A stretch of 33,157 bases of DNA. Source: Prevotella sp. GTDB taxonomy: Bacteria > Bacteroidota > Bacteroidia > Bacteroidales > Bacteroidaceae. Each line of letters starts with the position of its first letter. The first letter of the stretch is position 1. The DNA lies in NCBI GenBank assembly GCA_017443345.1, contig JAFSNR010000009.1, positions 1 through 33,157 of the forward strand, written 5' to 3'. Below the pieces are notes generated by a model. The model saw nothing but the letters and a program-made list of their open reading frames with translations, ran no database searches and had not been told where the DNA came from. Positions 6,603-22,687 of the stretch are shown piece by piece. The position numbers were made by a program, and so were the translations under genes.

Positions 6603-7361
6603 ATGAACAAAATGCACTTTGAAGAGAATGAAATTCCATTCGAGACCCTCGAACAGTTCGGTCTCACCCATGAGATGATTGAAGACCTGCCCGTGCGAGT
6701 CATCAACGACATCGTGGAAGGCAGACGTACCCCCGTCCTGCCCATCCAAGTAGCGGATGAGCAAGGCAACATCATCAAGAGCCGCACCCGCTTTGCCCTT
6801 GTCCGTAAGGATGACGGCAACGTCGATGTACTCTTCTATCCAGAGTTGGAGGAAGCCGACCTCAGCCGTTTCAACGAGCAGGAACGCACCCTCTTGGAGA
6901 GCGGAAAGAGTATCATCGCCACCGTGGAGGACAAGAACGGCAACATGGTTCGTTCCTACGTACAGTTGGACTCCGAGACGAAGCAGGTGCTTTCTGCCCC
7001 TACGCAGGTCATCGGTCGCAACCTACAGCTGATTGCCGACGAGATCTACCTGAGCGAGACGGAAGCCAACAGCTTGGGCAACGGCGAGCCTGTCACCTTT
7101 GTCCGTTACGATGTGGACGATGCCATCACCGTAGGCATTGACCTCCATGAGCGCACAGGAGTACGCATTGCCCCGGGCGATGCCAGGATGTGGAGCGAGC
7201 AGCGCAGCCGTGAGTGGGACAAATACACCTTCGGCATCTACGGCTGTTGGACGATGGACGAGGACGGCAACCTCGATTACGTCAAGGAGGAGGACTATAC
7301 CGACGAACTCTGGAACGAGCAGAAGAAAGCTGGCATGAGAGCCTTCGGGCACGGGCGATAA
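6603..7361 (+). CDS. DUF4099-type conjugative element protein
   Basis: A 252-residue protein. An in-frame extension upstream to 6468 exists, but it would cross the operator-like sites and the probable promoter, so the ATG at 6603 is preferred. The N-terminal region (PFETLEQFGLTHEMIEDLP, VVEGRRTPVL-like, around residues 9-45) is the DUF4099 signature seen in proteins of Bacteroidota conjugative elements, where it often accompanies DUF3945, Toprim or topoisomerase domains. The middle and C-terminus repeat short beta units (LVRKDDGNVDVLFYPEL; FVRYDVDDAITVG). It is the first gene of the long operon and ends in FGHGR, a tail shared with several operon partners. Biochemical function is unknown; DNA handling or transfer is the likely setting. 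Confidence 0.8.
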   Translation: MNKMHFEENEIPFETLEQFGLTHEMIEDLPVRVINDIVEGRRTPVLPIQVADEQGNIIKSRTRFALVRKDDGNVDVLFYPELEEADLSRFNEQERTLLESGKSIIATVEDKNGNMVRSYVQLDSETKQVLSAPTQVIGRNLQLIADEIYLSETEANSLGNGEPVTFVRYDVDDAITVGIDLHERTGVRIAPGDARMWSEQRSREWDKYTFGIYGCWTMDEDGNLDYVKEEDYTDELWNEQKKAGMRAFGHGR

Positions 7362-7394
7362 TTCAGGAAATGTGTAACGTAAAACCAATGTATC

Positions 7395-7619
7395 ATGGCA
7401 GAAAAACAGTATTACCCAGAGAGTGAACTGGTACAAAAGCTCCAGACAGGAGAATACGGCTGGCTTCAGTTCGTGAACCACCACTCCAAGGAATGGAAAG
7501 ACGAGTATCTGGCCTATTGCAAGGCGAACAAGCTGGTTATGAACGATGAGTCGGCAGAGCGTTTCGTCAACCACAAGGGCGAGATGCTCGAAAAAGCTTT
7601 GGCAGAGGGAGACGTTTAA
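7395..7619 (+). CDS. Small protein of unknown function (74 aa)
   Basis: A 74-residue acidic, helical protein, 33 bases after the DUF4099 gene and 21 bases before the next gene, in the same direction. The N-terminus (YYPESELVQKLQTGEYGWLQ) and the central FVNHHSKEWKDEYLAYCKAN helix are its recognisable parts. No signal peptide or transmembrane segment. Small proteins of this kind are common between the larger genes of Bacteroidota conjugative elements. Function not assigned. Confidence 0.65.
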   Translation: MAEKQYYPESELVQKLQTGEYGWLQFVNHHSKEWKDEYLAYCKANKLVMNDESAERFVNHKGEMLEKALAEGDV

Positions 7620-7640
7620 CCATCAAAAGAAAGGAAAGGT

Positions 7641-9293
7641 ATGTCAATACGATCCAACGCACTACCCATGAGAGGCGACCTCTCGCCAGAGTTGCAGGAC
7701 ATCCTCCGCAGGAACGGTATGCAAGCGCATATCATCCGTGAGGGCGATGCCTACAAGCTGGCCGTACAAGGTCACGACTCCCCACTGCTCACCTACCCCG
7801 TCAACGCCCAGCAGATGCGGGCGATGACCGACTGGGGTACCAACTATGCCAACAAGAATGCCTACAACACCTTTGCGCAGCTTATCGGCAATGATTTTTA
7901 TGTTCCTCGTAACTTCGTCCATGCCCGCAATGCCAACGGACGTGTCGCCATGGGGCTTCACGGCTACCGCATCGGTGTCGGTGAGTATGGCCGTCTGCCA
8001 TGGGACAGACGGGGACTTCATCCCATGATGGACCCCTATCATGGCAGGTTTCTTGGCTGGATCCCTCGTCAACAGGAAGGCTTTCACATGCGTCGTGTGG
8101 GAGGCCGCCTATTTATGCAGGGTGCGCCGATGGTGGCCGACCGTCCCGACGGACGCATGAAGCCGGGTGAGTTGCAGAACGGTGGCTATGGCTTTTATTA
8201 CAAAGGACAGCAGACCACCTACCAGCCACCCAAGCAGGACGTGCTGGCTGACCTCCAGGCTGCCATCACGCCTGTAGAGGTTGCACCGAGAAAGACCGAC
8301 CCTGCCAAGCCTTACAAGGAACTTATCACCTCGAATGTCTATTTCACCGACGAGAAGTTCCGCGAATGCCTTGACAGCCACGGTATCGTGATAGACCCAG
8401 AGAAGAAGACCCTCACCATCCAATCGACGGCCACCAAGCAGGACTTCGTGTATGACCTGACGGATGAGGAACTGAAGAAGCTCACCAGCAACTCCACCAA
8501 GGAGGTGTCAGTACAGGCACGTCTCGACCTGCTGAACGAGGTCATCAAAGGCGACTTCAAGGACAAGATTACGATGGACATGCTCAATTCCAAGGAGCAG
8601 ATTGGCATCACGCTCAAACCCGAAGTGGAGGCAGAACTGACCAACCGACAGGCGCAGTTGCAGGAGCTGGTCAACCAGCTGCAACCCTTGGAGAGTGGAC
8701 AAGGATTAGTCAATGCCGAGCCTGAAGACCGCAGCGTAGCCCATGTCGATGGCAGCTATCTCTATGAACTCAACGAGGAAAAGGCATGGTATCGTGAGGG
8801 CAAGCATGGCCGTGAGGTGATGGTCGATGACATCAAGGTGGAACCCGTGCGCAATGCACAGGGCGAAATCGAAAAGGATGCCAAGGGCGAGGCGAAGTAC
8901 CGCATGACCGCTGTCATCAACGGTGAGAGCATCAGCCACGAGATTACGCAGAAGCAGTACAACAAGTTCATGGCCATCGACGACTACCACCGCATGAAAC
9001 TGTTCTCGCACATCTTCCATGAGGTCGATATGAAGAACGTCCCCGGTATGCACGGCAACCTCGGAGCCAAGATTGGCGGTGCGCTGTTGGCAGGTCTTGC
9101 CGTCACCCGTGAGTTCGGGCGTGGTTTCCACGACCACAGCGGCCCCGCCATCTTCATGGAGCATCACGGGCCTGACAGACCCCATGTTTATTTCAAGCCG
9201 GGAGTCGATTCGCCGCAGGAACTGGCGGCAAGGGCTTTCGATGCAGGACTAAACGCAGGGGAACACGGCGTGGGCATGGGTCACGGGAGGTAA
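7641..9293 (+). CDS. Large element protein of unknown function
   Basis: A 550-residue soluble protein preceded by a good ribosome binding region (AAGAAAGGAAAGG about four bases before the ATG). The first 170 residues are rich in Gly, Tyr, Arg and His (PRNFVHARNANGRVAMGLHG; DRRGLHPMMDPYHGRFLGW). A middle charged region has a predicted coiled coil around residues 290-350. The C-terminal half includes a repeated DDIKVEPVRN-like beta unit and a Gly/His-rich end (HDHSGPAIFMEHHGPDRPHV) finishing in GMGHGR. That ending closely matches the DUF4099 protein of the same operon. No family recognised with confidence; the position between DUF4099 and primase genes suggests a role in DNA processing or establishment. 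Confidence 0.7.
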   Translation: MSIRSNALPMRGDLSPELQDILRRNGMQAHIIREGDAYKLAVQGHDSPLLTYPVNAQQMRAMTDWGTNYANKNAYNTFAQLIGNDFYVPRNFVHARNANGRVAMGLHGYRIGVGEYGRLPWDRRGLHPMMDPYHGRFLGWIPRQQEGFHMRRVGGRLFMQGAPMVADRPDGRMKPGELQNGGYGFYYKGQQTTYQPPKQDVLADLQAAITPVEVAPRKTDPAKPYKELITSNVYFTDEKFRECLDSHGIVIDPEKKTLTIQSTATKQDFVYDLTDEELKKLTSNSTKEVSVQARLDLLNEVIKGDFKDKITMDMLNSKEQIGITLKPEVEAELTNRQAQLQELVNQLQPLESGQGLVNAEPEDRSVAHVDGSYLYELNEEKAWYREGKHGREVMVDDIKVEPVRNAQGEIEKDAKGEAKYRMTAVINGESISHEITQKQYNKFMAIDDYHRMKLFSHIFHEVDMKNVPGMHGNLGAKIGGALLAGLAVTREFGRGFHDHSGPAIFMEHHGPDRPHVYFKPGVDSPQELAARAFDAGLNAGEHGVGMGHGR

Positions 9294-9319
9294 AAGAGAA
9301 CAGCAATCAGGATAACACA

Positions 9320-10846
9320 ATGGCAAAGCTCACCTACGACGATTTCAAGAACCGACTCAGCATCCAGGACGTACTGCTCGATGCCGGTTACACACTGAAC
9401 CGACGTGACGGTCTGCGTTATCCGTCGTTTGTGCGCTTGGACAGCGAAGGCCGTCGCATACGTGGTGACAAGTTCATCGTCACGGGCAACGGTCTTTGCT
9501 GTTTCCAGCCTCCCGTCCAGAAGAACTACAATGTCATCAGCTTCATCAAGGAACATCCTGCGTTTTTCTCCGACTACACCCCCGGCATGGACAAGGACAG
9601 GCTCGTGAACCTTGTCTGCAACCGACTTCTCAACAATCCCATCGAGGACAGGGAAGCGAAAATCTTCCGTCCAGAGCGTGACCTGCCACCCTTCCGCATC
9701 GGCGACTACAGGATGCACCACTTCGAGGGCAGCGACCGAGAAACGCAGAAACCCTTCTATCCCTATTTCAAGCCGAGGGGCATCAACCTCAGTACCCAAT
9801 ATGCCTTCCACCACGATTTTGTGTTGGCAGAGCGCACCGCTTCCAATGGTCAGGTATATAGGAACCTCTCCTTTCCCATGACCATACCCGGCGGCGACGG
9901 GAAGATTGTCGGCTTGGAAGAAAGGGGAAGAAGGAAGCTCGACGGAACATCCTACAAGGGTATGGCCAGAGGCTCCAATGCAAGCGAGGGGCTGTGGCTT
10001 TCCAGTCCTGCGGACACGAAACTCGAAGATGCCAAGCGTGTCTTTGTCTTCGAGAGTGCCTACGATGCGATGGCGTTCTACCAGCTTCTGGCAGGAAAGG
10101 ATTCTGTTTTGGACTACAAGGAGCGGAAGGAACTGTCAGCAGGGGTGTTTGCCTCGACTGGCGGCAACCCGTCAGTCAAGCAGTTTGAGGGACTGGTCAA
10201 AACAGCCAAGCAAGCCACCTTCCACCTCGGTTTCGACATGGACGAGGCAGGACAGCAGTTCGCCGAGCAGTTCAAGTCTGTGGCTACTGCCCACGGCGTG
10301 GATGAGAAACGTGTCATCCGTGAAGAGATCTCACCGGGCTACAAAGACTTCAACGAGGAACTGCTTGGCAGCATTGCCATGAAGAACCATCCGTTGGCCA
10401 AGGACAACGTGCCGGATGCCTATCAGGATTACGTCGATTCATTCCGCAAGACAAGCAAGGACATTCCCACGGTCAAGGCCTTACTTCATCCCACAGACGA
10501 ACAGGTTGACCTCTTGCCGCAGGACACACGAAAGCTGTATGCCCGATACGATTCGCTCTATGAGGATGCGTATGAGATGCGCTCCTCACGGCTCGTTGCT
10601 CCCGACGACAAGGAATCAGCCATACAAGGTGCGATGGAGGCTCACAAGGACTTCAGGGAAAGCCTGTGCAAGGCACTCGCCATCAAGGAGGACATGGCGG
10701 CAATGGACATCGAGCCGGAGGACGATGGCAACGACAAGAAGATACAGCACGACGTGGACTACACCACCGGCATTGACGAACAGGGCAATGTGGAGATGGA
10801 AGTCGAGACATCGAACATGGAAGAACGGAGGCATTATCACCGATAG
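9320..10846 (+). CDS. Toprim-domain DNA primase-like protein (DUF3991/Toprim)
   Basis: A 508-residue protein of the DUF3991/Toprim group found in conjugative elements. The N-terminal region (LSIQDVLLDAGYTLNRRDGL, then CCFQPPVQKNYNVISFIKEH) resembles the primase zinc-finger region but lacks a full set of metal-binding cysteines. The Toprim core is clear: Glu245 in FVFESAYDA, the FASTGGNPS glycine turn, and Asp306-x-Asp308 in FDMDEAG, which bind catalytic metal. The C-terminus is helical and acidic and ends in RRHYHR. It probably makes primers on transferred single-stranded DNA, like the TraC-type primase of RP4 that is carried into recipients. It follows the 550-residue protein by 26 bases and is followed by the PH-domain gene two bases later. 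Confidence 0.85.
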   Translation: MAKLTYDDFKNRLSIQDVLLDAGYTLNRRDGLRYPSFVRLDSEGRRIRGDKFIVTGNGLCCFQPPVQKNYNVISFIKEHPAFFSDYTPGMDKDRLVNLVCNRLLNNPIEDREAKIFRPERDLPPFRIGDYRMHHFEGSDRETQKPFYPYFKPRGINLSTQYAFHHDFVLAERTASNGQVYRNLSFPMTIPGGDGKIVGLEERGRRKLDGTSYKGMARGSNASEGLWLSSPADTKLEDAKRVFVFESAYDAMAFYQLLAGKDSVLDYKERKELSAGVFASTGGNPSVKQFEGLVKTAKQATFHLGFDMDEAGQQFAEQFKSVATAHGVDEKRVIREEISPGYKDFNEELLGSIAMKNHPLAKDNVPDAYQDYVDSFRKTSKDIPTVKALLHPTDEQVDLLPQDTRKLYARYDSLYEDAYEMRSSRLVAPDDKESAIQGAMEAHKDFRESLCKALAIKEDMAAMDIEPEDDGNDKKIQHDVDYTTGIDEQGNVEMEVETSNMEERRHYHR

Positions 10847-10848
10847 AC

Positions 10849-11334
10849 ATGGAACAGACCATACACAGAATCATCACCTTGCGTCCCCACTGGGCACAGT
10901 ACATCATCAGTCAGGGATTTCTTTTCCTTGTCAGTCTGCTGCTGTTCCTTGTCGCCGGTCACGAGAGCATCACCTTCAAGGCACCGTTCCTGATTCTCGG
11001 CTCTGCCACCACACTGATGATGCTCTACGGCTGCTTGTATCTCAGTAAACTGCGCTTCATCATCTCAGCAGAGCAGCTCATCGTACAGCACGGCATCTTC
11101 CATAGAACCAGTGACTACATCGAACTGTACCGCATCGTCGATTTCAGCGAGAGCCGCGACCTCCTGGAGCAGTTCTTCGGCCTGAAGACCATCTGCATCT
11201 ACAGCGGCGACCGCACCAATCCCAAGCTCGACATCTACGGCGTTAGGGAGAAACTGGACGTTGTAGGCATTGTCAGAGAAAGAGTGGAATACAACAAACG
11301 AAGAAAAGGCATCTATGAAATCACCAACCGATAG
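10849..11334 (+). CDS. Membrane protein with bacterial PH-like domain (DUF304/bPH2)
   Basis: A 161-residue inner-membrane protein. Two hydrophobic helices span about residues 18-37 (IISQGFLFLVSLLLFLV) and 45-64 (APFLILGSATTLMMLYGCLY). A cytoplasmic bPH2 (DUF304) domain follows, with the usual pattern RFIISAEQLIVQHGIFHRTS, IELYRIVDFSESRDLLEQFF and GLKTICIYSGD. Members of this family sit at the membrane and are thought to bind lipids or proteins; in conjugative operons a place in the envelope complex is likely but inferred. It starts two bases after the primase stop codon and overlaps the next gene by 20 bases. Confidence 0.8.
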   Translation: MEQTIHRIITLRPHWAQYIISQGFLFLVSLLLFLVAGHESITFKAPFLILGSATTLMMLYGCLYLSKLRFIISAEQLIVQHGIFHRTSDYIELYRIVDFSESRDLLEQFFGLKTICIYSGDRTNPKLDIYGVREKLDVVGIVRERVEYNKRRKGIYEITNR

Positions 11335-12064
11335 CCCCATACCAGGCATGAATGACCGTTGGAACTTCGACCGCCGATGGCTGGCAGTTGCATTGTTAGC
11401 CTTCGCCATTCTGTGGATAGGCTTCGGAAGGTCGAACGCGCAGATTGTGTCGAGCAACCCCTTGGAATATGTCGCCCTTGCCGAGGGCAACGAACTCATC
11501 AACGGTCAAATAAAAAGCCAGATAGAAGACCAGCAGAAGACAGCCTTGCTACAGAACACCATCGCTGCCGAGTTCACCCAGATACACAAGTGGGAGAAGA
11601 AATACAACTCCTACCTGAAGACCGTCGATGGCTATGCCAGCACTTTGAAGGCCTGCACCTCACTCTATGATGACGGTGTGCGCATCTTCATCAACCTCTG
11701 CAACCTGCGCAAATCCATTGCCGACAATCCCCAGGGTGTGGTGGCCACCATGTCGATGAACAACCTGTATATCGAGACGGCCACGGAACTGGTAACCGTC
11801 TATACGACACTCAGGGATGCCATCGCCAAGGGCGGTTCGGAAAACATGCTCACGGGTGCCGAGCGCAGCAAGACCCTCTGGGCACTCAACGACCGCCTGG
11901 ATGCCTTCAACAAGAAACTTAACAGACTCTGCCTGTCCATCCGCTACTACACCATGACCGACGTGTGGAACAGCGTGACCGCCGGAATGCTCGACCGCAC
12001 CAACGGCGAGGTGGCGCATGAAGCGCACCGAAGATGGATCAGGTGTGCCAGGGCCGCTCATTGA
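11315..12064 (+). CDS. Exported/membrane-anchored helical protein, paralogue of next gene
   Basis: A 249-residue protein. I start it at the ATG at 11315, with GAAAAGG just upstream, inside the end of the PH-domain gene; an upstream TTG has no such support. A hydrophobic segment (WLAVALLAFAILWIGFG) near residue 25 is followed by SNAQ, consistent with a signal peptide or anchor placing the rest in the periplasm. The mature part is helical. Its C-terminal half aligns by eye with the following gene: KKLNRLCLSIRYYTMTDVWN against RKLRHLTKAVKYTSLADVWA. The pair resembles in size and layout the exported TraI/TrbJ-type helical proteins of type IV secretion systems, but this is weak structural analogy, not recognised homology. 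Confidence 0.7.
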   Translation: MKSPTDSPIPGMNDRWNFDRRWLAVALLAFAILWIGFGRSNAQIVSSNPLEYVALAEGNELINGQIKSQIEDQQKTALLQNTIAAEFTQIHKWEKKYNSYLKTVDGYASTLKACTSLYDDGVRIFINLCNLRKSIADNPQGVVATMSMNNLYIETATELVTVYTTLRDAIAKGGSENMLTGAERSKTLWALNDRLDAFNKKLNRLCLSIRYYTMTDVWNSVTAGMLDRTNGEVAHEAHRRWIRCARAAH

Positions 12065-12081
12065 AAAGAAAGGAATTGCTT

Positions 12082-12774
12082 ATGTGCCATAGACTACTGC
12101 TTATCATCACCATAACGCTTCTCCTCCCCTTCTTCGGAGGCGGCAACATACTTTTTGCGCAGGGCAACGACCCTGTGCTGGCCGGCATGATAGCCCTCTA
12201 TACCGACAAGGCGAAGAAGGAGCTGAAACAACAGGAGCAGATGATGCTGCTCGAAAGCACCGGCCATGTCTGGATTACGGAAGAGGTAAACGCCACCACC
12301 GACCTGCAACGGGAGTTCAACAAGTACCTTGATGACTTTCACGGCATCATCACCTATGCGGCGCAGATATACGGCTTCTACCATGAGATAGACCGCATGA
12401 TAGACAACCTCGGCAGTTTCAGCCACCAGCTCAGTGAGCATCCCACCAACGCCCTTGCCGTGGCACTGTCCTCCAATAGAAACAAGATATATCGTGAGAT
12501 TATCATGGGCAGCGTGGACATCGTGAACGACATCCGTCAGGTATGCCTCTCCGACACGAAGATGACGGAGAAGGAGCGCATGGAGGTGGTCTTTGGCATC
12601 CGTCCCAAGCTGAAGCTGATGAACAGGAAGCTCAGGCATCTGACAAAAGCTGTCAAATACACCTCGCTCGCCGACGTGTGGGCAGAGATAGACTATAACG
12701 CCAGGAGCGAAGCCGATAAGGCCAGCATCACCCGACAGTGCATGGAACGCTGGCGACGAAACGGCAGACGATAA
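12082..12774 (+). CDS. Exported helical protein, paralogue of previous gene
   Basis: A 230-residue protein started at the ATG at 12082, which gives a proper signal peptide (MCHRLLLIITITLLLPFF, cleavage probably after LFAQ around residue 27) and has AAAGGAA upstream. The mature protein is helical with a coiled-coil-like N-terminal part (KAKKELKQQEQMMLLES). The last 60 residues match the previous gene in order and spacing, indicating tandem duplication and divergence. It ends in RWRRNGRR, a strongly basic tail. It is probably a periplasmic or envelope component of the transfer apparatus; no named family is claimed. Confidence 0.7.
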   Translation: MCHRLLLIITITLLLPFFGGGNILFAQGNDPVLAGMIALYTDKAKKELKQQEQMMLLESTGHVWITEEVNATTDLQREFNKYLDDFHGIITYAAQIYGFYHEIDRMIDNLGSFSHQLSEHPTNALAVALSSNRNKIYREIIMGSVDIVNDIRQVCLSDTKMTEKERMEVVFGIRPKLKLMNRKLRHLTKAVKYTSLADVWAEIDYNARSEADKASITRQCMERWRRNGRR

Positions 12775-12797
12775 CGAATAACGAAAACGAAAAGAAT

Positions 12798-13526
12798 ATG
12801 GGTTGGGGATCATTACTCAAAGCAACATTCAGATACGGAGGACGCGCAGCCAAGGCTACCGCCACCTCCGTCGGCGGTGCCGTCATCCATCCGCAGCGCA
12901 CACTCAAAGGTCTCGGAACGGCAGCCAAGACAGCCACCGTGGGCGGTGCAGCCGCCTACGTGGGATGGGAAAAGCTGACCACGGACAAGAGCGTCGCCCG
13001 TATCGTCGGCGATGCCGTCGTAGGGTCGGACACCATTGACAGCGTGAGCGAGAAGGTCGATGGCGTGGCAAATACCGTCAGCGAACTGAAGGACTCCGTG
13101 GGCGGTGCGGTGGATAGCGTGAACAATGCGATGACCAGTGTCGATAGCAAATGGAGCGGCATGTCGAACTTCCTGCGGGGCATGTTCTCCGGCAACGGCG
13201 GCAACATGTTCGGCAACTTCTTCAGCAACCTCGGCCAGGGCAATGTGTCGGGTCTCAGTCTCGCCGGACTGGTGCTCTCTGCCTTTCTCATCTTCGGACG
13301 CTTCGGCTGGATGGGCAAGATTGCAGGTGCGGTATTGGGTATGATGATGATTGGCAACAATGCCAATATGAGTCAGGTACTGGGCGGCGGACAAAGAACG
13401 CCAAAAGCCAGCTCTGATGTATCAGGACAGAGACAGAATAAGGCACAGTCCGACCAGCCATCCGTGCAGGTGTCGCCTGTCCCTGTGGTTGAAGAACCGA
13501 GGGAACAGATACACCGAGGACGATAA
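12798..13526 (+). CDS. Glycine-rich membrane-associated protein
   Basis: A 242-residue protein started at the ATG at 12798 after AACGAAAACGAAAAG; an upstream start would overlap the previous gene. The first part is rich in Ala, Gly and Thr (KATATSVGGAVIHPQRTLKG), followed by an amphipathic, low-complexity helix region (VDSVSEKVDGVANTVSELK). Two or more hydrophobic segments lie at about residues 155-205 (LSLAGLVLSAFLIFGRFG; WMGKIAGAVLGMMMIG). The tail is Gln/Ser/Pro-rich and ends in IHRGR. The layout resembles the later 501-residue gene of the operon, whose C-terminal half also has Gly-rich hydrophobic segments. Membrane component of the transfer machinery is the likely role; no family recognised. 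Confidence 0.7.
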   Translation: MGWGSLLKATFRYGGRAAKATATSVGGAVIHPQRTLKGLGTAAKTATVGGAAAYVGWEKLTTDKSVARIVGDAVVGSDTIDSVSEKVDGVANTVSELKDSVGGAVDSVNNAMTSVDSKWSGMSNFLRGMFSGNGGNMFGNFFSNLGQGNVSGLSLAGLVLSAFLIFGRFGWMGKIAGAVLGMMMIGNNANMSQVLGGGQRTPKASSDVSGQRQNKAQSDQPSVQVSPVPVVEEPREQIHRGR

Positions 13527-13578
13527 ATAAAAACAATAAGCGATGAATATAAGTAACTGAACAACAAGTACAAAGATA

Positions 13579-14433
13579 ATGTCAATGAAATTCTCACATG
13601 AAATGATGCTCCAGTCCGACAGCGGCTACTGTATGCCGTTTGAGGAAAAGGACAAGGACGTGGAGATGTCACTCGGCTACGGCAAGCAACGGCATCCCAA
13701 GACAGGTGAGCCGTTCTTCCATCACGGAGTCGATTTCGCCGTCAGGCACTACCTCCTTGCTGCCGTCGCCACGGGCAAGGTTTCGGGCTTGGGCAACGAT
13801 GCCGTCCATGGTATCTATCAGGTCATCCGCTACGGCGACTACGAAGTGACCTATGCCCATCTGAGCAATGTTTTCGCCAACTACGGACAGGTGGTCAAGG
13901 CTGGTCAGGTGGTGGCGGTCAGTGCCGACATGCTCCATATCGGGGTGAAGTTCAAGGGAGAGGAATTGAATCCCTTGGAGTTCCTGACGATGATTTACGG
14001 CAACATCAAGGCACTGGAGCAGCAGGGGCAGGTCGGCGGCGTGCCGCACTTCGTCACCATCGACATGGACGTACACACCCGTTACGACAAGGACCAGAAG
14101 GAGATTGAGGAACTGATGATGCGCTTCTTCCCCGACTACATGAGCGACATGAGCAGCGGCATCTATACGCTGCCGGAGCACACGGAGTTGGCACTCCGCA
14201 ACATCTTCGCCATGTCGTCGATGAAGAACTATTTCTATGAAACCCTGCCGAGCATGGCCAACCCCTTGGGCATGGGCATGAGAAGCATCCCCATCGCCGA
14301 GAAGGTGCAGAACCTGCTCATTGCCGACTTCCTCAACTACTTAGCTTTGCGTCATCACGTGTTCCTGAGCACCATGTCGGCCCTCGAAAAAAAAAAGCTG
14401 AAGAACAAGCCGTCGCTACCAGCGGACTCATAG
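13579..14433 (+). CDS. M23-like protein, N-terminal frame of a split gene
   Basis: A 284-residue product in the zero frame. An M23/LytM-like fold occupies about residues 30-130: HHGVDF with His48 and Asp52, YAHLS with His94, and MLHIG with His120. The first His of the usual HxH is Met118, so metal ligands remain but one catalytic His is gone and the domain may bind peptidoglycan without cutting it. No signal peptide is present. The last 14 residues after an A10 run at 14387-14396 look unnatural (Lys/Pro/Ser and a stop). A -1 shift in the run opens a frame that continues to 14720, giving a product of about 380 residues. This is a true frameshift, programmed slippage or a sequencing error. Confidence 0.72.
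   Translation: MSMKFSHEMMLQSDSGYCMPFEEKDKDVEMSLGYGKQRHPKTGEPFFHHGVDFAVRHYLLAAVATGKVSGLGNDAVHGIYQVIRYGDYEVTYAHLSNVFANYGQVVKAGQVVAVSADMLHIGVKFKGEELNPLEFLTMIYGNIKALEQQGQVGGVPHFVTIDMDVHTRYDKDQKEIEELMMRFFPDYMSDMSSGIYTLPEHTELALRNIFAMSSMKNYFYETLPSMANPLGMGMRSIPIAEKVQNLLIADFLNYLALRHHVFLSTMSALEKKKLKNKPSLPADS
14387..14396 (+). other. A10 slippery run joining two frames
   Basis: Ten consecutive As at 14387-14396, preceded by CTCG and followed by GCTGAAG. Reading moves from the frame of 13579 to the frame of 14460-14720 by a -1 shift here. Runs of this length are known to promote transcriptional or ribosomal slippage and are also common sites of sequencing error. Confidence 0.6.
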
Positions 14434-14720: not shown

Positions 14721-14723
14721 GCA

Positions 14724-16229
14724 ATGGCAGATACACCGAGCGACAGACTTTTCAAGACCAAGGTCTTGCCCATCATGGACAAGGTGATGAAAGACCTGCG
14801 CCACAAGCAATTGGAGGAGATAGGACGGCACACCACCAGCCTGCCCTATATCATGGCAGGTGCTGCCGGCCCCGACGGTGGCATGTCGGCACAGGCTGCC
14901 AGCCTGTTCTCCCTGCGTTATACGGGAGAATGGAACTCCAAGCACACAGAGGACTATATCCAGATGGTGAAGGACGAACTGAAGAAGCAGAAGATTACTG
15001 TCACGCCTGAGATAGAGAAGATGATGATTGATAAGATGGTCAAGGATGAGATTCCCAAGTCATCCATCGAGTATATCATGCGCAAGGCAGCGACCAACAC
15101 CATCTTCTATCTCCCCCATGCCATGAGCAAGTCGCCGTTGGAGAACCATATCTCCGAACAGGCAGAGAAACGCTATAATCCCTCTACGTTGGAGAAAGGC
15201 TCCGGCTATGTGTTGGGCGCGACTACAGACTTCCTGTCCATGGGTGGTGTTGGAGGCGGTTGGGCAAAAGGCATGAAGTTCGTGGGCGTAGACCTCGGAC
15301 TGAACGTGGCACTCGACAAGCTGACACCTACCTCCGACGGTCTTCCTGATTCCCAACTGGCAGCAGGACAGAAAGGAAAGAAGAACGACGATGAATATGT
15401 GCCGCTTATCATTGCGCCAGAGTACGTGGAGCAATACAAAGCCGACCAAGCCCGACTGAAAGCGGCAAAGGCTGAAGCTGACCAACAGGTACAGAGTACC
15501 CAAGGAACACCGTATCCTGCATCACAGCAGACGGAAGCACCTGTGGAAGAACCCAAGAACGATGTAGCATCTTCTGAAATGCCAGCTCCTACAGAGGTGA
15601 CACAGGCAGAAGTGGCCACACAGCCACAGCAGACGAATGAGAGCGGTTGGAACGGACTTCTCAGTTCCTTCGGTCTGAACGGCATCTCCGACATCGGCCA
15701 CAACCTCGGCTATGTGCTGGCCATGCTGCCCGACATGCTCGTAGGTATCTTTACGGGAAAGACAAAATCATTGGGCTTGAAAGACAACCTCATGCCGCTT
15801 GCCAGTATTGTTGCCGGCATGTTCGTCAAGAATCCTATTCTGAAGATGGTGCTCATCGGCATGGGCGGTCTCAACCTGCTGAACAAGGCAGGACACGAAG
15901 CCATCGACAGGCAAAGGGGAACTGCCGACCAGCAAGGCGTGAGGGGTACGGTACGCGGCAACTATGTCGTCTATCCCGATGAACAACTCAATGCCCGTAT
16001 CTCACAGCCACAGATAAAAGGCAACTGTTTGGTGGCCACCATCGACAGGGTACCCTGTACGATAGCCCTGCCCGACAAAGTGGTGGATGCCTACAACCAG
16101 GGCGCACTGCCCCTGAACACCCTCGCCAATGCCGTCCTTGCCAAGAACGACCAGATGCGGCAGATAGCGTCCGAACACTATGCCGCAGGAGAAAGACAGA
16201 CTCAGGAGCGTCCGCTCGCACAACGATAA
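14724..16229 (+). CDS. Large element protein with hydrophobic C-terminal region
   Basis: A 501-residue protein. The first 200 residues are soluble and helical ([40 protein letters not shown]), followed by a Gly-rich turn region ([20 protein letters not shown]). A Gln/Glu/Pro/Thr-rich linker spans about residues 240-305. The C-terminal third has hydrophobic segments ([40 protein letters not shown]) and then a small beta-rich domain ([20 protein letters not shown]). It ends in RPLAQR. The same order of Gly-rich then hydrophobic parts is seen in the gene at 12798. A membrane-linked component of transfer is likely. No named family recognised. Confidence 0.7.
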
Positions 16230-16251
16230 CCATTATCAAATCGAAGATATT

Positions 16252-18795
16252 ATGCAAGAAAAGAATCCACAAGAGAAAGCAGCAGCCGCAAGACAGGCTG
16301 AGTTAATCATCAATGCTCTGGAGCGTGCCAAAACAAACAACGGCGTATGGCTGAACCCGCAGGAGAAGACTGCACCCCGTTTCTATCCGAGGGGTGTCAC
16401 CGTTTCTGCCTTCAATGCTCTGACGATGGCCCTGCACAGCGACGAGAACGGTTACAAGACCAACGAGTACACGCTGTTCACCGAGGCCAAGAAACGTGGT
16501 GAGGCCGTGCAGTCCAATGAACATGGCGTACCCTTCTACTGGTACAACTGGAAGGAGTACGCGGGCAAGCAGAACCCCGATGACAGAATCAGCAGGGAGG
16601 CTTACCAAGCCCTCGACCCGAAGCAGCAGGAAGGCTACAAGGGCGTGCGCACCCGTGAGGTGCGTACCCTTTTCAACATCGACCAGACCACGATGCAGTT
16701 CGTGGATAAGGCGCAGTATGACAAGGAGGTGAATACGCATGGTACAGCTGGGGAGCGTGAGCATTCCAAGTCGGAAGACAACCATCTGACGATAGCCGTC
16801 AACGATTTCCTCCTGAAGATGCGCGACAACCTCGTCCCCATCCGCAAGGACGGCAGTGGCGTGGCCCACTACGACGAGAAGAAAGACACCGTCTATATGC
16901 CGAGCGAAAAAACCTTTGCTTCCTACAAGGACTTCGCCAATGAGCTGATGCGTCAGGTGGCAGGTGCCACGGGCAGCGTACAGTTGCTGGCGCGTAGCAG
17001 CTCCGGCAATGTGACCTCTCCCGATGATGCGAAAAAGCAGGAACGGCTCATCACCGAACTGGCGGCTGGCAGCAAGATGCTGGAACTGGGTCTTCCTGCA
17101 AGGCTGTCACCCGAAAGCATGAGGATGGTCGATTACTGGCAGAGGGAGCTGAAGGAGAACCCACGTCTCATCGATGTCATCGAGGCAGACGTGAACAATG
17201 CCGTGGATATGATGCACAAGGCTGAGCGCGGCGAGAAGGTGGAGCGTTCCTCCACTGTCAACCGTCAGCAGACCGCTGACCTGCAAGCCGGACTGCCCAA
17301 ACACTTCTTCATCGCAGACGAAATCAAGGAACTGCCCAACAAGGCCAGCAAGGAGTTTGTCCTGGTACGTGACGCGGAATCCAAGAGCGTTGATGTGGTG
17401 TTGCCAGCCGGTGCATCGTTGGAAGTGAACAACGAGGTACCGGGCATGAGCAAGGCGCGTATCGAAAAGGCTCTCCGCAAGGAAGGCTTTGAGCAGGTAC
17501 ACTTCTTCAACATGGACGGTGCCCTGGGCTACCGCCATGATGACAGCTATTTCGCAGGAAAGGAGGTGTCGGTGGACAAACTCAACAACTGGAACCTGAA
17601 CGAAACCGCGAAACTTGATGTCAGCGATGCCGTGCGGCGTGCCAATGCCGTGACCTTCGACAAGGTGCTGATGATGAAGGATGACTGCGGCAAGTGGGCG
17701 ATGTTCCTGAAGCCGGAAAACGAAAAGTCCTTTGCCGTCTATCCCGACAAGGCCGATGTCAACCGTTTCTTCGTGACCATGAAGCAGGGCGACGAGGAAG
17801 CCAGCGACCTGATGCGGCAGGAGATGGCCTCCAAGTACTATGCGATGGCAACCCATGACCCGTCGGTGAAGTTCGACCTCTTCAAGAGTCAGGCCACCGC
17901 AGAGGAGCTGGCACGCATCGAGCGTGTCAACATCTTCAAGACCAAGGGTACGGAGAACAAGCCGGGCATCATCATCTGCTCTCCCACCATCGACGGCAAG
18001 CGGCTACAGGGCAAGGAGGTCAGTCCCTTGCAGTGGCAGTGCATGTGGCTGGCCGATGACAAGCAGGACTACAAGACCCATCTTGCCGCCTCCCTCTTTG
18101 CCGACGTGCTGCGCAAGGAACAGAGCAACTCCGTAGCCGTAGGCACTGACAAGACCGAGCAGGAGGCACAGACGGAGACCAAGGAGCAGACCAAGCAGGT
18201 GGAGTTCCATGAGGAGAACGACAAGCAGGAACGGAAGGAAGAGGAGAAAGCGGAGGAACAAGTCCATTCCGAGAAGAAGGAGGAAGAGAAGCGTCGCAAC
18301 TCACCCGAACAAAAAGAAAAGGAACGACAGGAGGAGAAAGCCAAGGAGGAAGCCACCAAGGCAGCGACCAAGGCCGTCACCGCCGTTGTCCTCTCACCCA
18401 TCATGAAACAGTTCCTGGACTTGAAGAGCAAGCATCCCGACGCGCTGATGCTGTTCCGCACAGGCGACTTCTACGAGACCTATCAGGATGACGCACGGAA
18501 AGCCTCGAAGATTCTGGGCATCACCCTGACCAAGAGCAGCAAGCAAAACGGACCTGATGGTAAACCCGTACAGATGGCGGGATTCCCTTACCATGCCCTC
18601 GACACCTATCTGCCCAAGCTCATCCGTGCCGGAGAGCGTGTCGCCATCTGTGACCAGTTGGAAGCGCCCAAGCAGACTGCCAAGCGCAGTGGCGTGGAGA
18701 CTGCCATGGAAGGCAAACAGGAGGTGAAGGAAGTGGTTACTCCTGCACAGAAGCAGGAAGAAGAACAAACGCAGCATCGCAGTATGCACAGATAA
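16252..18795 (+). CDS. ArdC-like domain fused to MutS mismatch-recognition domain I
   Basis: An 847-residue protein, started at the ATG at 16252. Residues about 40-250 resemble the ArdC antirestriction fold: [25 protein letters not shown] and [12 protein letters not shown] mirror segments of the ArdC gene at 21122. Its HExxH zinc motif is degenerate (NELMR at residues 230-234), so the metalloprotease-like centre is dead. Beyond a charged Glu/Lys-rich coiled linker (about 625-710), residues 716-820 are a near-complete MutS domain [21 protein letters not shown], then [37 protein letters not shown] and RVAICDQLE. Phe740 and Glu742 are the Phe-x-Glu pair that reads mismatches in MutS. There is no MutS ATPase. 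The protein ends in RSMHR. Protection or sensing of incoming single-stranded DNA is my inference. Confidence 0.85.
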
Positions 18796-18804
18796 CGAGA
18801 GACG

Positions 18805-20409
18805 ATGGCAAACAATTCCAGACAACAGTATATCGACCAGTATGCGGAGTGCGCCATGGAGCAGATGCGCAGGTACGGCATACCTGCCTCCGTGACCCTC
18901 GCACAGGGCATCATCGAGTCGGCCAACGGCAAGAGCACCCTTGCACGAACCGCCAACAACCACTTCGGCGTGAAGGGCGAGTTCAATGGAGCCTACGTCC
19001 TTGCCAACGACGACAAACCCAACGAAAGGTTCAAGAAGTACGACAACGTGGGACAGAGCTATGAGGACCACAGTAAAGTCCTCATGGCTTCGCGTTACCA
19101 GAAGTATGTCGGCAACCTCTCTCCTGATGACTACAAGGGCTGGGCGGCTGGCATCAAGGCTGGCGGCTATGCTACCGCCAAGAACTATGTCTCCACCATC
19201 GTCGGTGTCATCGAGGGCAGCAACCTCTACAAGTATGACCAGATGGTCATCGAGCAAGCCAAGAGAGAGGGTAAGAAGATTGGCTCTGGCGACTACCGCA
19301 AGGGCGAGGTGTCTGCGTCCACCGCTCAGGCAGCGGCAGCAGCCACCCCCAACGGTCTTTATTCCCTACCTTTGAAAAGGGATGAGTTCATGCTGGTGAC
19401 ATCACCTTTCGGCAACCGACGTGACCCGATGAACCACAGCAGGACGCAGTTCCACAAGGGCATCGACATAGGTTGCAGGAACGAGACACTGCTTGCCACG
19501 GAGAACAATGGTAAGGTGGTCGGCGTGAACCATAATGCCAACACGGGCGGCGGCAAGTCCGTCACCATCGAGTACAACCGTGCGGATGGCAGTAAGTACC
19601 AGACCACCTACATGCACATGTCGAGCATCGACGTGAAGATAGGCGATGCAGTCAATGCTGGACAGAAGATTGGTGTGTCGGGCAACAGCGGCACTCGCAC
19701 GACGGGGCCGCACCTGCATTTCGAGGTGAAGACGATTGCGGCTGACGGCACGAAGCGGAATATCGACCCAGCGGCGTATATTGCGGAAATCAGCCAGAAG
19801 GGAGGACTGTCACAAAAGTTGCTTTACAACGGGAAAGACCTGCTTGCGTCTTACAAGGCAGCCAACCCGCTTTCTACTGAGACACCATCAGTCGCTGCGG
19901 AACAAGAGATAGACACCAATCTTTCTCCCGATGAGTGGATGAAGAAAATCCTCTCTTCGGAAGACAGCGGCCTGGGCATGACTCCCGGCGGCGACCCCGT
20001 GATAGAGATGGCGATGACACTCTTCACTTCCCTCATGGCCTTGGCGGTGCAGATAGACAACAAGAGTGAGGAAGAGAAGATGCAAGCGGCAACCGACGCT
20101 GCCGTAAACAGGCAGATAGACCTCACGTCCCTTTTGCCAAACATGAAGGAATGCAGTCTGTCACTCTCTACGGGAAGTCCCTTGCTGACGGTTGACAACG
20201 GTAGCGTTAGGTTCACTCATGAGCTGACCAATGCGGAAATGACCCGCATCCAACAGACGTTGGGCAACAATGACCTGTCAGATGACGAGAAGCGTCGCTC
20301 CGTAGCCAGCATGGTCAATGGCATCGTGGTCTCGCAGCAGATGTCGCAGAACTACCAGCAGGGCGTGGAAGCACAGCAAAGCCAGCAGGAGGCCGTACAA
20401 CGGAAATAG
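18805..20409 (+). CDS. Bifunctional peptidoglycan hydrolase: GH73 glucosaminidase + M23 peptidase
   Basis: A 534-residue protein with two wall-cutting domains. The N-terminal glucosaminidase (GH73/FlgJ-like) spans about residues 5-155, with catalytic Glu38 in QGIIESANGKS and NNHFGVKGEF following. The M23 domain spans about 190-330: SPFGNRRDP, His217 and Asp221 in HKGID, His271 in YMHMS, and His303 and His305 in PHLHF, all intact. So it should cut both the sugar backbone and the peptides, opening a hole for the transfer channel. It has no signal peptide, so it must be exported by the secretion system itself or by another route. The C-terminal 170 residues are helical and unknown. It begins nine bases after the ArdC-MutS gene. 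Confidence 0.9.
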   Translation: MANNSRQQYIDQYAECAMEQMRRYGIPASVTLAQGIIESANGKSTLARTANNHFGVKGEFNGAYVLANDDKPNERFKKYDNVGQSYEDHSKVLMASRYQKYVGNLSPDDYKGWAAGIKAGGYATAKNYVSTIVGVIEGSNLYKYDQMVIEQAKREGKKIGSGDYRKGEVSASTAQAAAAATPNGLYSLPLKRDEFMLVTSPFGNRRDPMNHSRTQFHKGIDIGCRNETLLATENNGKVVGVNHNANTGGGKSVTIEYNRADGSKYQTTYMHMSSIDVKIGDAVNAGQKIGVSGNSGTRTTGPHLHFEVKTIAADGTKRNIDPAAYIAEISQKGGLSQKLLYNGKDLLASYKAANPLSTETPSVAAEQEIDTNLSPDEWMKKILSSEDSGLGMTPGGDPVIEMAMTLFTSLMALAVQIDNKSEEEKMQAATDAAVNRQIDLTSLLPNMKECSLSLSTGSPLLTVDNGSVRFTHELTNAEMTRIQQTLGNNDLSDDEKRRSVASMVNGIVVSQQMSQNYQQGVEAQQSQQEAVQRK

Positions 20410-20414
20410 TTTTC

Positions 20415-20446
20415 TAACTTCATATTTAACTTCATTATTAACTTCA
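20415..20446 (+). repeat. Three TAACTTCA copies with exact 12-base period
   Basis: TAACTTCA occurs at 20415-20422, 20427-20434 and 20439-20446, each 12 bases after the last, in the 50-base AT-rich gap before the SSB-like gene. It is non-coding. It may be a small protein-binding array, a translation-tuning leader or a simple slippage expansion. Confidence 0.6.
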
Positions 20447-20459
20447 AAATTTCAGTATT

Positions 20460-21122
20460 ATGATTAAGTGTAACGTAACAGTTTGTGGTACCATCAGTCG
20501 CGCAGCGCAGATGCGTACAGGAAAGGAAGGCAAGGCCTTCATGTCTATGAGTGTGAACGTGGTGATTCCCGCCAAGTCGGGCATTAACAAGACGGTGGAG
20601 GTCAGCGTGTCCAAGGACGGCGGTTCACAGGATGAGTGCGCCAGCTATCCCGTCGGCACCCGTGTAGAGGTCGCAGGAACGCTCACCTTCCACAAGAAGG
20701 GCGACGCTTTCTATCTCAACCTCTCGGCCACCGGCATCAACACCTTTGACGCAGGGAACGAGGACGGCATCAAGGGCGACATGGAGTTCCGTGGAACCCT
20801 CGGCAAGAAGATCGAGGTGAAGACGGACAAGAAGGGCAACCCGTTCTGCGTATTCTCTGCCTACAGCAGTGAGAAGAATGGCGAGAACTATGAGTTCACA
20901 TGGGTACGCTTCCTCCAGTTCGGCGAGGACAAAAAGGACTGGATGCAGCCCAAGGTTGGCATCGATGCCAATGGCGAGCTTCAGATGAGCGTCTATAACG
21001 ACCGTCTCGACATCAGCTGCCGTGTCAGCGAACTCTCGAAGTGGGAGAAGAACAGCGGCAACAGCCAATCTCCTAACGTGCAGTCTGGCGATGGCGAAAC
21101 GACCTTATCCGTTGATGCGTAA
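20460..21122 (+). CDS. Single-stranded DNA-binding protein-like, two OB-fold units
   Basis: A 220-residue protein with two SSB-like OB-fold units. The first (residues about 1-95) reads IKCNVTVCGTISRAAQMRTG, AFMSMSVNVVIP and VGTRVEVAGTLTFHKKGDAF; the second (about 105-195) reads MEFRGTLGKKIEVKTDKKGN and NGEDYEF-like strands with VRFLQF. The tail is short and polar and lacks the acidic DDDIPF-type tip of housekeeping SSB. It would coat single-stranded DNA during transfer or entry. It lies just before ArdC, with its TAA stop sharing one base with the ArdC ATG, so the two are translationally coupled. A three-copy 12-base repeat precedes it. Confidence 0.72.
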   Translation: MIKCNVTVCGTISRAAQMRTGKEGKAFMSMSVNVVIPAKSGINKTVEVSVSKDGGSQDECASYPVGTRVEVAGTLTFHKKGDAFYLNLSATGINTFDAGNEDGIKGDMEFRGTLGKKIEVKTDKKGNPFCVFSAYSSEKNGENYEFTWVRFLQFGEDKKDWMQPKVGIDANGELQMSVYNDRLDISCRVSELSKWEKNSGNSQSPNVQSGDGETTLSVDA

Positions 21123-22687
21123 TGGCAAAGGAGAAGAATTACCACAGAGACGGGCCGTCGGCTGAGGACAGGGCGTTGGAGAAGTTTGCCGAGATGATGA
21201 TCGAGAAAATCTCGACGCTCCAGAGCGACTGGAAGAAGCCGTGGTTCACGGAGGGTGCGCTCACGTGGCCGAAGAACCTCTCAGGCAGGGAGTATAACGG
21301 AATGAATGCCATGATGCTGATGATGCACTGCGAGAAGGAGGGCTTCAAGTTGCCCGTGTTCTGCACCTTCGACCGCGTGGTGGGTCTCAACTACGGCAAG
21401 GACAAGGAAGGTGGCAGGAAACCGCTGACCGACGGCGAGGGCACCCCGCTCCCCAAGGTGTCTGTCAACAAGGGCAGCAAGTCCATCCCCGTGTTCATCA
21501 CCACGTTCACCTGCATCGACAAGGAGACGAAGGAGAAAATCAAGTACGAGGACTACAAGCGGATGACCGAGGAGCAGCGTGCGAAATACAACGTCTATCC
21601 CAAGTTGTCCGTCTATAACGTCTTCAACGTGGACCAGACGAACCTGAAAGAGGCCAGACCGGAGCTGTACCGAAAGTTAGAGGAGCAGAACCGACAGGTA
21701 CGTCCGCAGACAGAGGCTGGCGAAGCCTTTTCTTTCAAACCTGTTGACCACATGATTGAGCACGACGAATGGATTTGTCCCATCAAACCGACCTACGGCG
21801 ACAACGCCTACTACAGTATCTCGAAGAAGGAAATCGTCATCCCTGAGAAGGGACAGTTCAAGGACGGAGAGTCGTTCTACAGCAACCTCTTCCACGAGAT
21901 GGCGCACTCCACGGGTGCCGAGGAGCATCTGAACCGCCTGAAGCCCGGACAGAGCTTCGGTAGCAAGGAGTACAGTGCCGAGGAGTTGAAAGCCGAGATG
22001 ACCGCTGCACTCGTCTCACAGCGATACGGCATGACGAAGCACCTGAAGGAGGATTCGGCGGCTTACCTGAAGAGCTGGCTCGACAACCTGCGTGAGGAAC
22101 CTGCTTTCATCAAGACCATCCTGACGGACGTGAAGAAAGCCTCTCACATGATTACTCAGAGGGTGGATGCCATCCAGCTACAGTTGGACAACGGTAACGA
22201 GCAACAACAGGCTACCGAACAGTCACAAGGCAACCTGAAGAACCTTGGCAAGATGGACATTCCCGAATGGAGCCTGAACTATCTGGCCAACGGCGATGCA
22301 ACGAACCTGTCTGACGAGGAAGTGGCCATGGTGGACGCTTTCGTCAAGGAGCATTTCCCAAACGGCTTCATCATGGACATCGACTTCGACGACAGCACGG
22401 AACTGAACCGTTATCCTGCGTTCGGGCCGAGAAACGAAAGCGCGCTGACCGACCGAGGTGAGTTGCCTTATCTGGCCACCAAGACTTTTGCTGTGACTTT
22501 CTACGATGCAACTCAACGTGAAGATGTGTCGCTGAGCGAAAGCAAAACAAGCGAAGAGACAAAGTCAGAGGCTGTAAACACGGAGGCTGCGGAACAAGTC
22601 AATGCGCCCAAGGAAGAAGCCGTGGCTGCCAAAGAACCTCCCAAGGAGGAGCAGGAGGAAGTCGTGGCGTATCGCTTCCACAGATAG
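21122..22687 (+). CDS. ardC: ArdC-family antirestriction protein
   Basis: A 521-residue protein. The N-terminal ssDNA-binding domain of ArdC (about residues 15-190) includes NLSGREYNGMNAMMLMM, a vITTF-type strand and YNVFNVDQTNL. The metallopeptidase-like domain follows, with an intact zinc motif HEMAH at 258-262, STG after it, and the downstream Glu cluster EELKAE at 287-292. Members protect incoming plasmid DNA from restriction, and ArdC of plasmid pSa is known to travel with the transferred strand. The C-terminal 150 residues are acidic and of unknown fold and end in YRFHR. It is the last gene of the plus operon, before a hairpin terminator. It contrasts with the degenerate ArdC-like domain in the MutS fusion. 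Confidence 0.88.
   Translation: MAKEKNYHRDGPSAEDRALEKFAEMMIEKISTLQSDWKKPWFTEGALTWPKNLSGREYNGMNAMMLMMHCEKEGFKLPVFCTFDRVVGLNYGKDKEGGRKPLTDGEGTPLPKVSVNKGSKSIPVFITTFTCIDKETKEKIKYEDYKRMTEEQRAKYNVYPKLSVYNVFNVDQTNLKEARPELYRKLEEQNRQVRPQTEAGEAFSFKPVDHMIEHDEWICPIKPTYGDNAYYSISKKEIVIPEKGQFKDGESFYSNLFHEMAHSTGAEEHLNRLKPGQSFGSKEYSAEELKAEMTAALVSQRYGMTKHLKEDSAAYLKSWLDNLREEPAFIKTILTDVKKASHMITQRVDAIQLQLDNGNEQQQATEQSQGNLKNLGKMDIPEWSLNYLANGDATNLSDEEVAMVDAFVKEHFPNGFIMDIDFDDSTELNRYPAFGPRNESALTDRGELPYLATKTFAVTFYDATQREDVSLSESKTSEETKSEAVNTEAAEQVNAPKEEAVAAKEPPKEEQEEVVAYRFHR

Follow-up and report, generated by a model that had tools for sequence, protein, structure and literature searches.

Unrelated proteins encoded by one operon of a Prevotella element share a short tail at their extreme C-terminus. 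The operon lies on a 33,157-bp stretch of Prevotella sp. DNA, an entire contig (JAFSNR010000009.1) of a draft genome of 204 contigs (GCA_017443345.1), which we call the window. We find that the tail is real, anchored at the C-terminus, conserved at the protein level in several unrelated families and variable between lineages, while the structural Tra families remain at background. We read it as an address for type IV secretion, placed at the C-terminus of proteins that would be delivered together with DNA, a reading drawn from sequence to which we assign a probability of roughly 0.58.

Tails of the operon proteins and their orthologues

An earlier note on this DNA picked out six plus-strand proteins ending in FGHGR, MGHGR, HYHR, IHRGR, SMHR and RFHR; all six tails are present at the genes it named (Table 1), and their final Arg is written CGA, AGG, CGA, CGA, AGA and AGA, as it claimed. 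The carriers do come from different families, with unrelated Pfam domains. Ends of the strict form His-x-Arg or His-Arg occur in 5 of 15 plus-operon genes versus 7 of 865 dereplicated background open reading frames (ORFs) (binomial p = 1e-7), the background being mechanical ORFs of at least 100 residues from the fetched loci, in place of the host proteome; IHRGR fails this strict match. The His-x-Arg ending proposed in the note is real and above chance, but as a motif it is too narrow: because orthologue ends vary at positions -1 and -3, differing by lineage within a wider pattern, it is not the conserved feature. As for the other endings that the note listed, PLAQR is a conserved ending specific to its family, and two were set aside as domain-conserved: ITNR is a conserved PH-domain end (YEITNR in most copies compared), and RNGRR closes a conserved C-terminal stretch of g12034, a protein with a signal-like N-terminus.

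Using f7641, a conserved protein of the operon, as query against one genome per species (84,980 species), we found 47 loci. At these loci the tails stay on the same genes, and the linker before the tail is unalignable, varying in both sequence and length. Seventeen of 18 aligned window-type Toprim sequences (the window's included, out of 26) end in [H/R]R after a hypervariable linker, and one ends in YRRSV; the aligned proteins are 380 to 552 residues long, with E/Q/K-rich linkers of differing length. The variant YHRSV/YRRSV, which runs two residues past the basic pair, is common among loci, in a tally that left out the small duplicate loci L106-L143. Orthologues of the hydrophobic protein g12738 end IHRSR, GGMRR, GGMKR, RGLKR or GGIRR, with GWVR as the single exception. 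Close relatives of the ArdC-MutS_I protein end SMHR, AFHR, GLHR, GFHR, GYHR, GMKR, SLRR, GLRR, EVRR or GRGR, and those of the window-type ArdC end RFHR, AFRR or GMRR. The DUF4099 tails are GHMR, SMHK, ALHK, GIHK, GMKR, AMKL, THKM and NPKL, and also VARK, GGR, MQR, HQR and HRL. Ends in f7641 orthologues are GHTR, GLGR, RRGR, MGR, RRGY, RRGM and KGL, and in g14724 orthologues TLAQR, THAQR, RGIQ and FGIK. Relatives of the glucosaminidase-M23 protein end LQRK, NLKR or NRQIR, and also VRLA, LRQA or TRS; those of MobV end KRKKR, KKSKR, RKLKR, RKLKRS, RKIKRGR or GISR.

The consensus is Gly/Ser (or His/Arg), a hydrophobic residue or His/Arg, a basic Lys/Arg/His, and a final Arg/Lys/Met/Leu/Ile. By composition, position -1 is mainly R and then M/L/I/V, -2 is K/R/H, and -3 is M/F/H/L/R. 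The information pooled over five unrelated families, computed without any pattern, is 1.47, 1.14, 0.82 and 1.08 bits at -1 to -4, versus means of 0.15-0.23 bits and a maximum of 0.40 in equal-sized controls. The tail is probably exposed at the end of its E/Q/K-rich linker. It might be supposed that a basic C-terminus simply binds nucleic acid without specificity, given that most tails hold at least one basic residue and many carriers are DNA proteins; we consider this very improbable, since Gly at -4 and, in related elements, a hydrophobic M/L/I at -1 are conserved alongside the charge, and the linker is Glu-rich.

As the note argued, the last Arg is kept at the protein level; all six Arg codons are used at -1 over seven tailed clusters (AGA 55, CGA 38, CGC 11, CGT 7, AGG 6, CGG 2). 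The last Arg codon is AGA or CGA in 93 of 119 tailed genes versus 113 of 158 control genes; the excess is a general end-of-gene bias, and we rejected a stop-codon or codon-context artefact as the cause of the tails. Chance, the nucleotide context of the stop codon, or inheritance of a single C-terminal domain from a common ancestor could be invoked, given that AGA and CGA are favoured in control genes as well, yet any of these is scarcely credible: the tails are enriched over background ORFs, relatives use six Arg codons and other residues besides, the carrier domains are unrelated, and the end persists while the linkers before it cannot be aligned and vary in length.

We measured enrichment with two patterns, A ([HKR][RKMLIV] at the C-terminus) and B (the same with [GSRH][FMLIYVHR] in front). 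After clustering the ORFs and removing redundancy by 4-mer overlap, we named 30 clusters, with labels that we assigned from annotated members. The background rate is 94/865 for A and 18/865 for B, which is if anything too high, because several B matches outside the named families are proteins of tailed elements, for example a MutS_I protein. Toprim proteins match A in 16 of 19 and B in 15 of 19 (B p=3.5e-20), ArdC in 17/30 and 14/30, DUF4099 in 24/37 and 12/37, and g12738 in 8/11 and 6/11. Enrichment is weaker for topoisomerase III (A 9/16); MobV matches A in 4/7 (p=0.004) and B in 0/7, a second relaxase cluster matches A in 1/10, and a cluster of unknown function, c17, matches A in 4/11 (p=0.03). 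The Tra clusters are at background (TraM A 2/12, B 0; TraN 0/9; TraK A 1/6, B 0; TraJ A 1/6, B 0), as are the type IV coupling protein (T4CP; A 2/11, B 0), VirB4 (A 1/9, B 0), OmpA (A 1/9, B 0) and PH (0/15). Neither of the two outcomes that the earlier note said would refute its idea came about: the ending is enriched in homologous elements, and it is kept among orthologues despite their variable linkers.

The patterns were written after many tails were known, so this count is partly in-sample; the later test used loci that were fetched afterwards and that belong to other families in the class. There, DUF4099 matched A in 12/23 and B in 9/23 versus 27/319 and 2/319 of the other ORFs (p 5e-7 and 3e-10); this count removed only duplicates with the same last 60 residues, and two DUF4099 genes of the genome G528 were missed by it. 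Stricter, 4-mer-type dereplication gave A 8/19 and B 5/19 (p 2e-4 and 6e-6). L245 opens with a DUF4099 match, which the later-loci count leaves aside. Topoisomerase matched A in 5/12, ArdC matched A in 2/5 and B in 1/5, and methylase A in 3/10 and B in 1/10; DUF4099 alone is clearly significant for both patterns.

Tail flavours among element lineages

Of 295 genomes of the order, 17 have DUF4099; in the phylum sample the figure is 24 of 395, and the window's own genome is counted in both. The tail comes in several flavours: HR or RR in window-type elements; GRKM, GMKM and GLKI in elements that we take to be CTnDOT-like; LKI and MKL in pBFY46-type plasmids; and xGR or xSR in another group. The DUF4099-DUF3945 protein of the CTnDOT-like elements has the tail GMKM, GRKM or GPKL; their topoisomerase III closes with SGRKK or KK, and a methylase-helicase-like protein of 1,938 residues with GLKI. 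In one of these elements, five adjoining genes end HKL/HKV, including a DUF7222 protein and a weak, below-cut-off LPD3 match. Across four pBFY46-type plasmids (L040, L196, L197 and L199), DUF4099 ends FKL/LKF/IKL, DUF3945 ends MKL/MKM/LKI and Toprim ends IKL/FRL/LKI. A zeta-toxin gene on one of these, plasmid pBACSA01 (L199:12479-13339), ends RGYKI, the plasmid's own tail flavour; its L196 relative ends KKGFF. Three Cytophagales plasmids have DUF4099 proteins with the tail SIKR or GVKR and DUF3991 proteins with VKL or IRY.

In the group with xGR or xSR tails, these ends stand on DUF4099 and ArdC and fall outside patterns A and B. Several adjoining genes of L244-L245 and L239-L242, which lie outside the window's order, end xGR, SR or NGR, apparently a further tail flavour. 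The ArdC proteins of Hymenobacter and of a Spirosoma plasmid with phage genes have no such tail. Nor do any of seven ArdC proteins of Pseudomonadota plasmids, all of them shorter than the tailed ArdC; eight listed rows were fetched for this comparison outside Bacteroidota, and that of Comamonas (L250) was left unscored, its end not having been fetched. A scan of viral contigs gave one locus.

Three otherwise different proteins of plasmid pBFO17_1 (L259, NZ_CP036540.1), namely an ArdC-zincin protein, a DUF4116 protein and an annotated DNA methylase, share one C-terminal domain (..KTPLGWxLTIGKQI..) that is at most 95 residues long. No Pfam family lies over this domain, and it is absent from all other loci compared; it may be the equivalent of the tail in a different class of elements.

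Within an element, the last four residues of unrelated proteins resemble one another more than shuffling predicts (p=0.004 for 39 elements and 0.005 for 29; p=0.002 for 53 and 0.02 for 34 in an enlarged set), and control positions -24 to -21 give p=0.81 (53), 0.42 (34) and 0.90 (21). These tests left out proteins shorter than 150 residues and elements with fewer than two families; the first also left out the small duplicate loci, and the enlarged set g12738. The co-variation is moderate in strength and lies between element lineages, not demonstrably below that level.

Candidate roles of the tail

We counted nine families as tailed, including f7641 and g14724; of their 265 proteins, only one has an N-terminal hydrophobic segment (0/58, 0/45, 0/33, 1/24, 0/15, 0/21, 0/33, 0/26 and 0/10 family by family; glucosaminidase 0/14). 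The g12738 family has a hydrophobic segment in 20 of 21 members, never N-terminal. In comparison families, N-terminal segments are found in 27/30 PH, 8/9 TraK and 8/13 TraM proteins. Two peptidoglycan hydrolases of the operon (18805-20409 and 13579-14433) have no signal-like N-terminus, and their exit from the cytoplasm raises a question.

In Xylanibacter brevis, the operon lies inside an integrative and conjugative element, with TraJ-, TraK-, TraM- and TraN-like genes (names assigned by likeness of ends and position) and a 729-residue T4CP upstream, and MobV downstream. A PF02534 T4CP was matched in 9 of 13 genomes or records, and in four (G330-G333) it shares a contig with f7641, lying ~17-25 kb upstream of it. 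The pBFY46-type plasmids encode the carriers together with a type IV secretion system (T4SS) and a coupling protein. We did not rely on a contingency between tails and T4CP class (PF02534-type 18 tailed/2 untailed; TraM-recognition type 0/4; Fisher p=0.0014), because it was a post hoc hand tally of elements with shared ancestry, the two types of T4CP are homologous to each other (24-30% identity), and a recount differed by an element or two.

A shared tag for co-transfer or docking, as suggested in the earlier note, fits best, because the carrier classes are those expected in a recipient, N-terminal hydrophobic segments are lacking, and relatives are known to be transferred; the mechanism that follows is our interpretation of the sequences. 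In the excerpts available of Iyer et al (2017; PMC5512222), ArdC of pSa and the TraC1 primase of RP4 are transferred whole in conjugation, and delivery of polyvalent proteins together with DNA is proposed. Other sources, likewise excerpted, state that T4SS signals can be C-terminal and positively charged or hydrophobic (PMC11288057), and that transfer of F-plasmid maintenance proteins requires a relaxosome engaged with the coupling protein (PMC8406263). In Bacteroidota, a short linear tag at the end of an E/Q/K-rich linker would direct element proteins through the T4SS into the recipient, the most likely reader being the T4CP or the relaxosome docked on it. The cargo would comprise ssDNA-binding ArdC and MutS_I proteins, a Toprim primase, topoisomerase, a methylase-helicase, a peptidoglycan hydrolase and a hydrophobic protein, and would act in the recipient in protection, priming and establishment of the incoming strand. 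The tailed set is close to the recipient-side establishment kit that would be expected.

Several observations weigh against a secretion address. ArdC is untailed in three pBFY46-type plasmids (L040, L196 and L199) whose DUF4099, DUF3945 and Toprim proteins are tailed, and this slightly reduces our confidence. The relaxases of such plasmids end QQQN or SQQQ, the ArdC proteins of pMMCAT and p5482 are untailed, and a Persicobacter plasmid (L198) shows no such ends by eye. Two elements, L037 (pE2-28) and L039, have a closely related T4CP but untailed DUF4099 and Toprim proteins, so the tag is not universal. We tried a frameshift as the cause of the untailed L039 Toprim, and three frames gave no obvious tail. 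Two later-fetched DUF4099 genes of one genome (L241, L248) end FDRDL and sat among the "other" ORFs. Among the clusters, topoisomerase matches pattern B in just 2/16, and in 0/12 at the later loci; methylase (A 2/7, B 1/7) is non-significant; f7641 (A 1/13, B 0/13), g14724 (0/13 for both) and a mixed M23 and glucosaminidase cluster (A 7/43, B 0/43) are unenriched; and SSB (A 1/9, B 0/9) is at background.

Further points against it concern the supporting evidence. The untailed SSB likewise has no N-terminal hydrophobic segment (0/12), and our simple hydropathy test misses many true signals, detecting 3/13 OmpA and 4/11 TraN proteins. The window contig has no PF02534 T4CP (its genome has five matches elsewhere), and the family is absent in 4 of the 13 genomes or records searched, namely the window-type records W01, W02 and W05 and the genome G006. 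Information is also raised at -7 to -15 (0.51-0.78 bits), because the linkers share their E/Q/K-rich composition, and therefore only -1, -2 and -4 stand clearly above linker level. Co-variation was not seen inside either of the two supergroups (p=0.30 and 0.46), nor when the strictest dereplication left 21 elements (p=0.13).

The strongest competing reading is a docking tag used inside the cell, by which primase, ArdC, topoisomerase and relaxase would be held on a hub in the donor, such as the relaxosome or a replication complex, with no role in translocation. Short C-terminal motifs on several partners are a known logic of hubs, as in SSB and clamp biology, and the tail fits it; most carriers bind or process DNA, and the lineage flavours would fit any co-evolving partner. 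What a donor replication hub leaves unexplained are the similar ends on the hydrophobic protein, where they are enriched, and on the peptidoglycan hydrolase, where they are seen by inspection alone; we regard this rival as possible but, on balance, unlikely. A tag for stability or proteolysis (a degron, an anti-degron or a processing site for a host or element protease) would account for the strict C-terminal anchoring and the shortness of the tail, and some carriers have MPTase domains. We judge it improbable: a host-wide degron is not expected to be concentrated in element families or to vary with lineage, and carriers without MPTase are tailed too.

The secretion-address reading can be taken further, as a tentative and doubtful extension, to a lineage-specific four-residue postal code that is read by the cognate T4CP and loads the delivery set; a different coupling protein would go with a different tag, such as the pBFO17_1 domain. 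On this extension, the signal-less peptidoglycan hydrolase and the hydrophobic proteins would open a way through the envelope of the recipient, much as phage ejection proteins do.

Layout of the block and likeness to known systems

An element that shares the block at ~5.8 to 30 kb of the window occurs in the TSDC17.2 strain series, in records of Parabacteroides distasonis and of Bacteroides finegoldii; the block also matches a related element of Phocaeicola massiliensis from that series. Its genes are, in order, an M23 peptidase, DUF4099, a 74-residue protein, the 550-residue f7641, Toprim/DUF3991, a PH-domain protein, two membrane or exported proteins, the hydrophobic protein, M23, an 86-residue protein, a 501-residue protein, ArdC-MPTase-MutS_I, glucosaminidase-M23, SSB and ArdC-MPTase, followed on the opposite strand by an OmpA-like protein and the MobV relaxase (Table 1). 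Two polypeptides, at 16180-18795 and 21122-22687, each combine several of the polyvalent-protein domains (ArdC-N, MPTase-PolyVal, MutS_I). We tried f7641 as a DUF3945 homologue and rejected it (hhalign probability 3%).

Table 1. Features of the window, with the pBFO17_1 domain carriers; for the six tailed genes the second coordinate is the end of the stop codon.
Feature	Coordinates	Strand	Matches and C-terminal end
DUF4099 protein	6603..7361 (ORF opens at 6468)	+	PF13351 E=3.5e-14; tail FGHGR, codons 7344-7358
f7641, conserved protein without assigned family	7641..9293	+	tail MGHGR, codons 9276-9290
Toprim_2/DUF3991 primase-like protein	9320..10846	+	PF13155 E=1.7e-9; tail HYHR, codons 10832-10843
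bPH_2 membrane protein	10849..11334	+	end ITNR belongs to conserved domain, not linker-borne
g12738, hydrophobic protein with internal hydrophobic segments	12738..13526	+	tail IHRGR, codons 13509-13523
g14724, conserved protein	14724..16229	+	family-specific end PLAQR, codons 16212-16226
ArdC-N + MPTase-PolyVal + MutS_I polyvalent protein	16180..18795 (ORF opens at 16180)	+	PF08401, PF18818, PF01624; tail SMHR, codons 18781-18792
Glucosaminidase + M23 peptidoglycan hydrolase	18805..20409	+	PF01832, PF01551; end VQRK, codons 20395-20406; no N-terminal hydrophobic segment
SSB-like protein	20460..21122	+	PF00436; ends SVDA, no tail (internal negative)
ArdC-N + MPTase-PolyVal protein	21122..22687	+	PF08401, PF18818; tail RFHR, codons 22673-22684
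MobV relaxase	24922..26385	-	PF01076 E=6e-15; basic end GRKMKR, tail codons 24925-24942
pBFO17_1 ArdC-zincin protein	L259:11980-13602		shared C-terminal domain
pBFO17_1 DUF4116 protein	L259:13621-15264		shared C-terminal domain
pBFO17_1 annotated DNA methylase	L259:22160-23659		shared C-terminal domain

The adjoining membrane or exported proteins of 11270-12064 and 12034-12774 fall in one homology cluster, with up to 84-87% identity in relatives and no Pfam family above cut-off; they are probable transfer components. Residues 144-521 of the window ArdC recur with 100% identity on a second contig (G000:C187:10655-11788), as a second copy or an assembly duplicate. The same element, with shared protein accessions, is found in the P. 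distasonis and B. finegoldii records of TSDC17.2 (L036, L043 and hit H3), which suggests its recent transfer. In X. brevis (L144-L146), ~22 kb between the T4CP and M23 hold large minus-strand genes, including two proteins of ~650 residues with near-alike ends; the run looks like a cargo or defence island.

The tail resembles the VirB/D4-type T4SS signals (VirF, VirE2, MobA) and those of the F-plasmid conjutome, which are described in the excerpted text as C-terminal, positive or hydrophobic, and carried by several unrelated proteins; those signals were mapped to 19-50 residues of loose composition (PMC10025392, PMC11288057), whereas here we find 3-5 residues, at most two residues from the end, in Bacteroidota and read from sequence. 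The T4SS-signal traits found here are a position at the very end of several proteins unrelated to one another, a positive or hydrophobic character, and carriers without an N-terminal hydrophobic segment. The polyvalent proteins have the ArdC-N, MPTase-PolyVal and MutS_I domains in common with our carriers, but the excerpts describe no shared C-terminal tail (PMC5512222). The C-terminal domain (CTD) of the type IX secretion system (T9SS) is likewise a C-terminal secretion signal, typical of Bacteroidota; in the partial descriptions available it is a folded beta-sandwich on Sec-signal proteins, in contrast to the tailed carriers with their near-absence of N-terminal hydrophobic segments, and no T9SS CTD family is among the window's Pfam matches. 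Peroxisomal targeting signal 1 (PTS1) and encapsulin cargo-loading peptides are short C-terminal addresses common to unrelated proteins; they belong to different cells or compartments and receptors, and the likeness is an analogy alone.

In the gut, conjugative elements of Bacteroidota are major vehicles for the exchange of genes. The open-licence PubMed Central literature on Bacteroidota conjugation, DUF3945/DUF4099 or polyvalent proteins, as far as its accessible text goes, contains no description of this tail, and the literature covered holds no study of the signals that choose co-transferred proteins in Bacteroidota conjugation. If the secretion-address reading is true, a tag of four residues would allow the delivered proteins to be predicted from sequence; it would also offer a direct test of the hypothesis that polyvalent proteins are delivered, and a small handle for studying or interrupting transfer.

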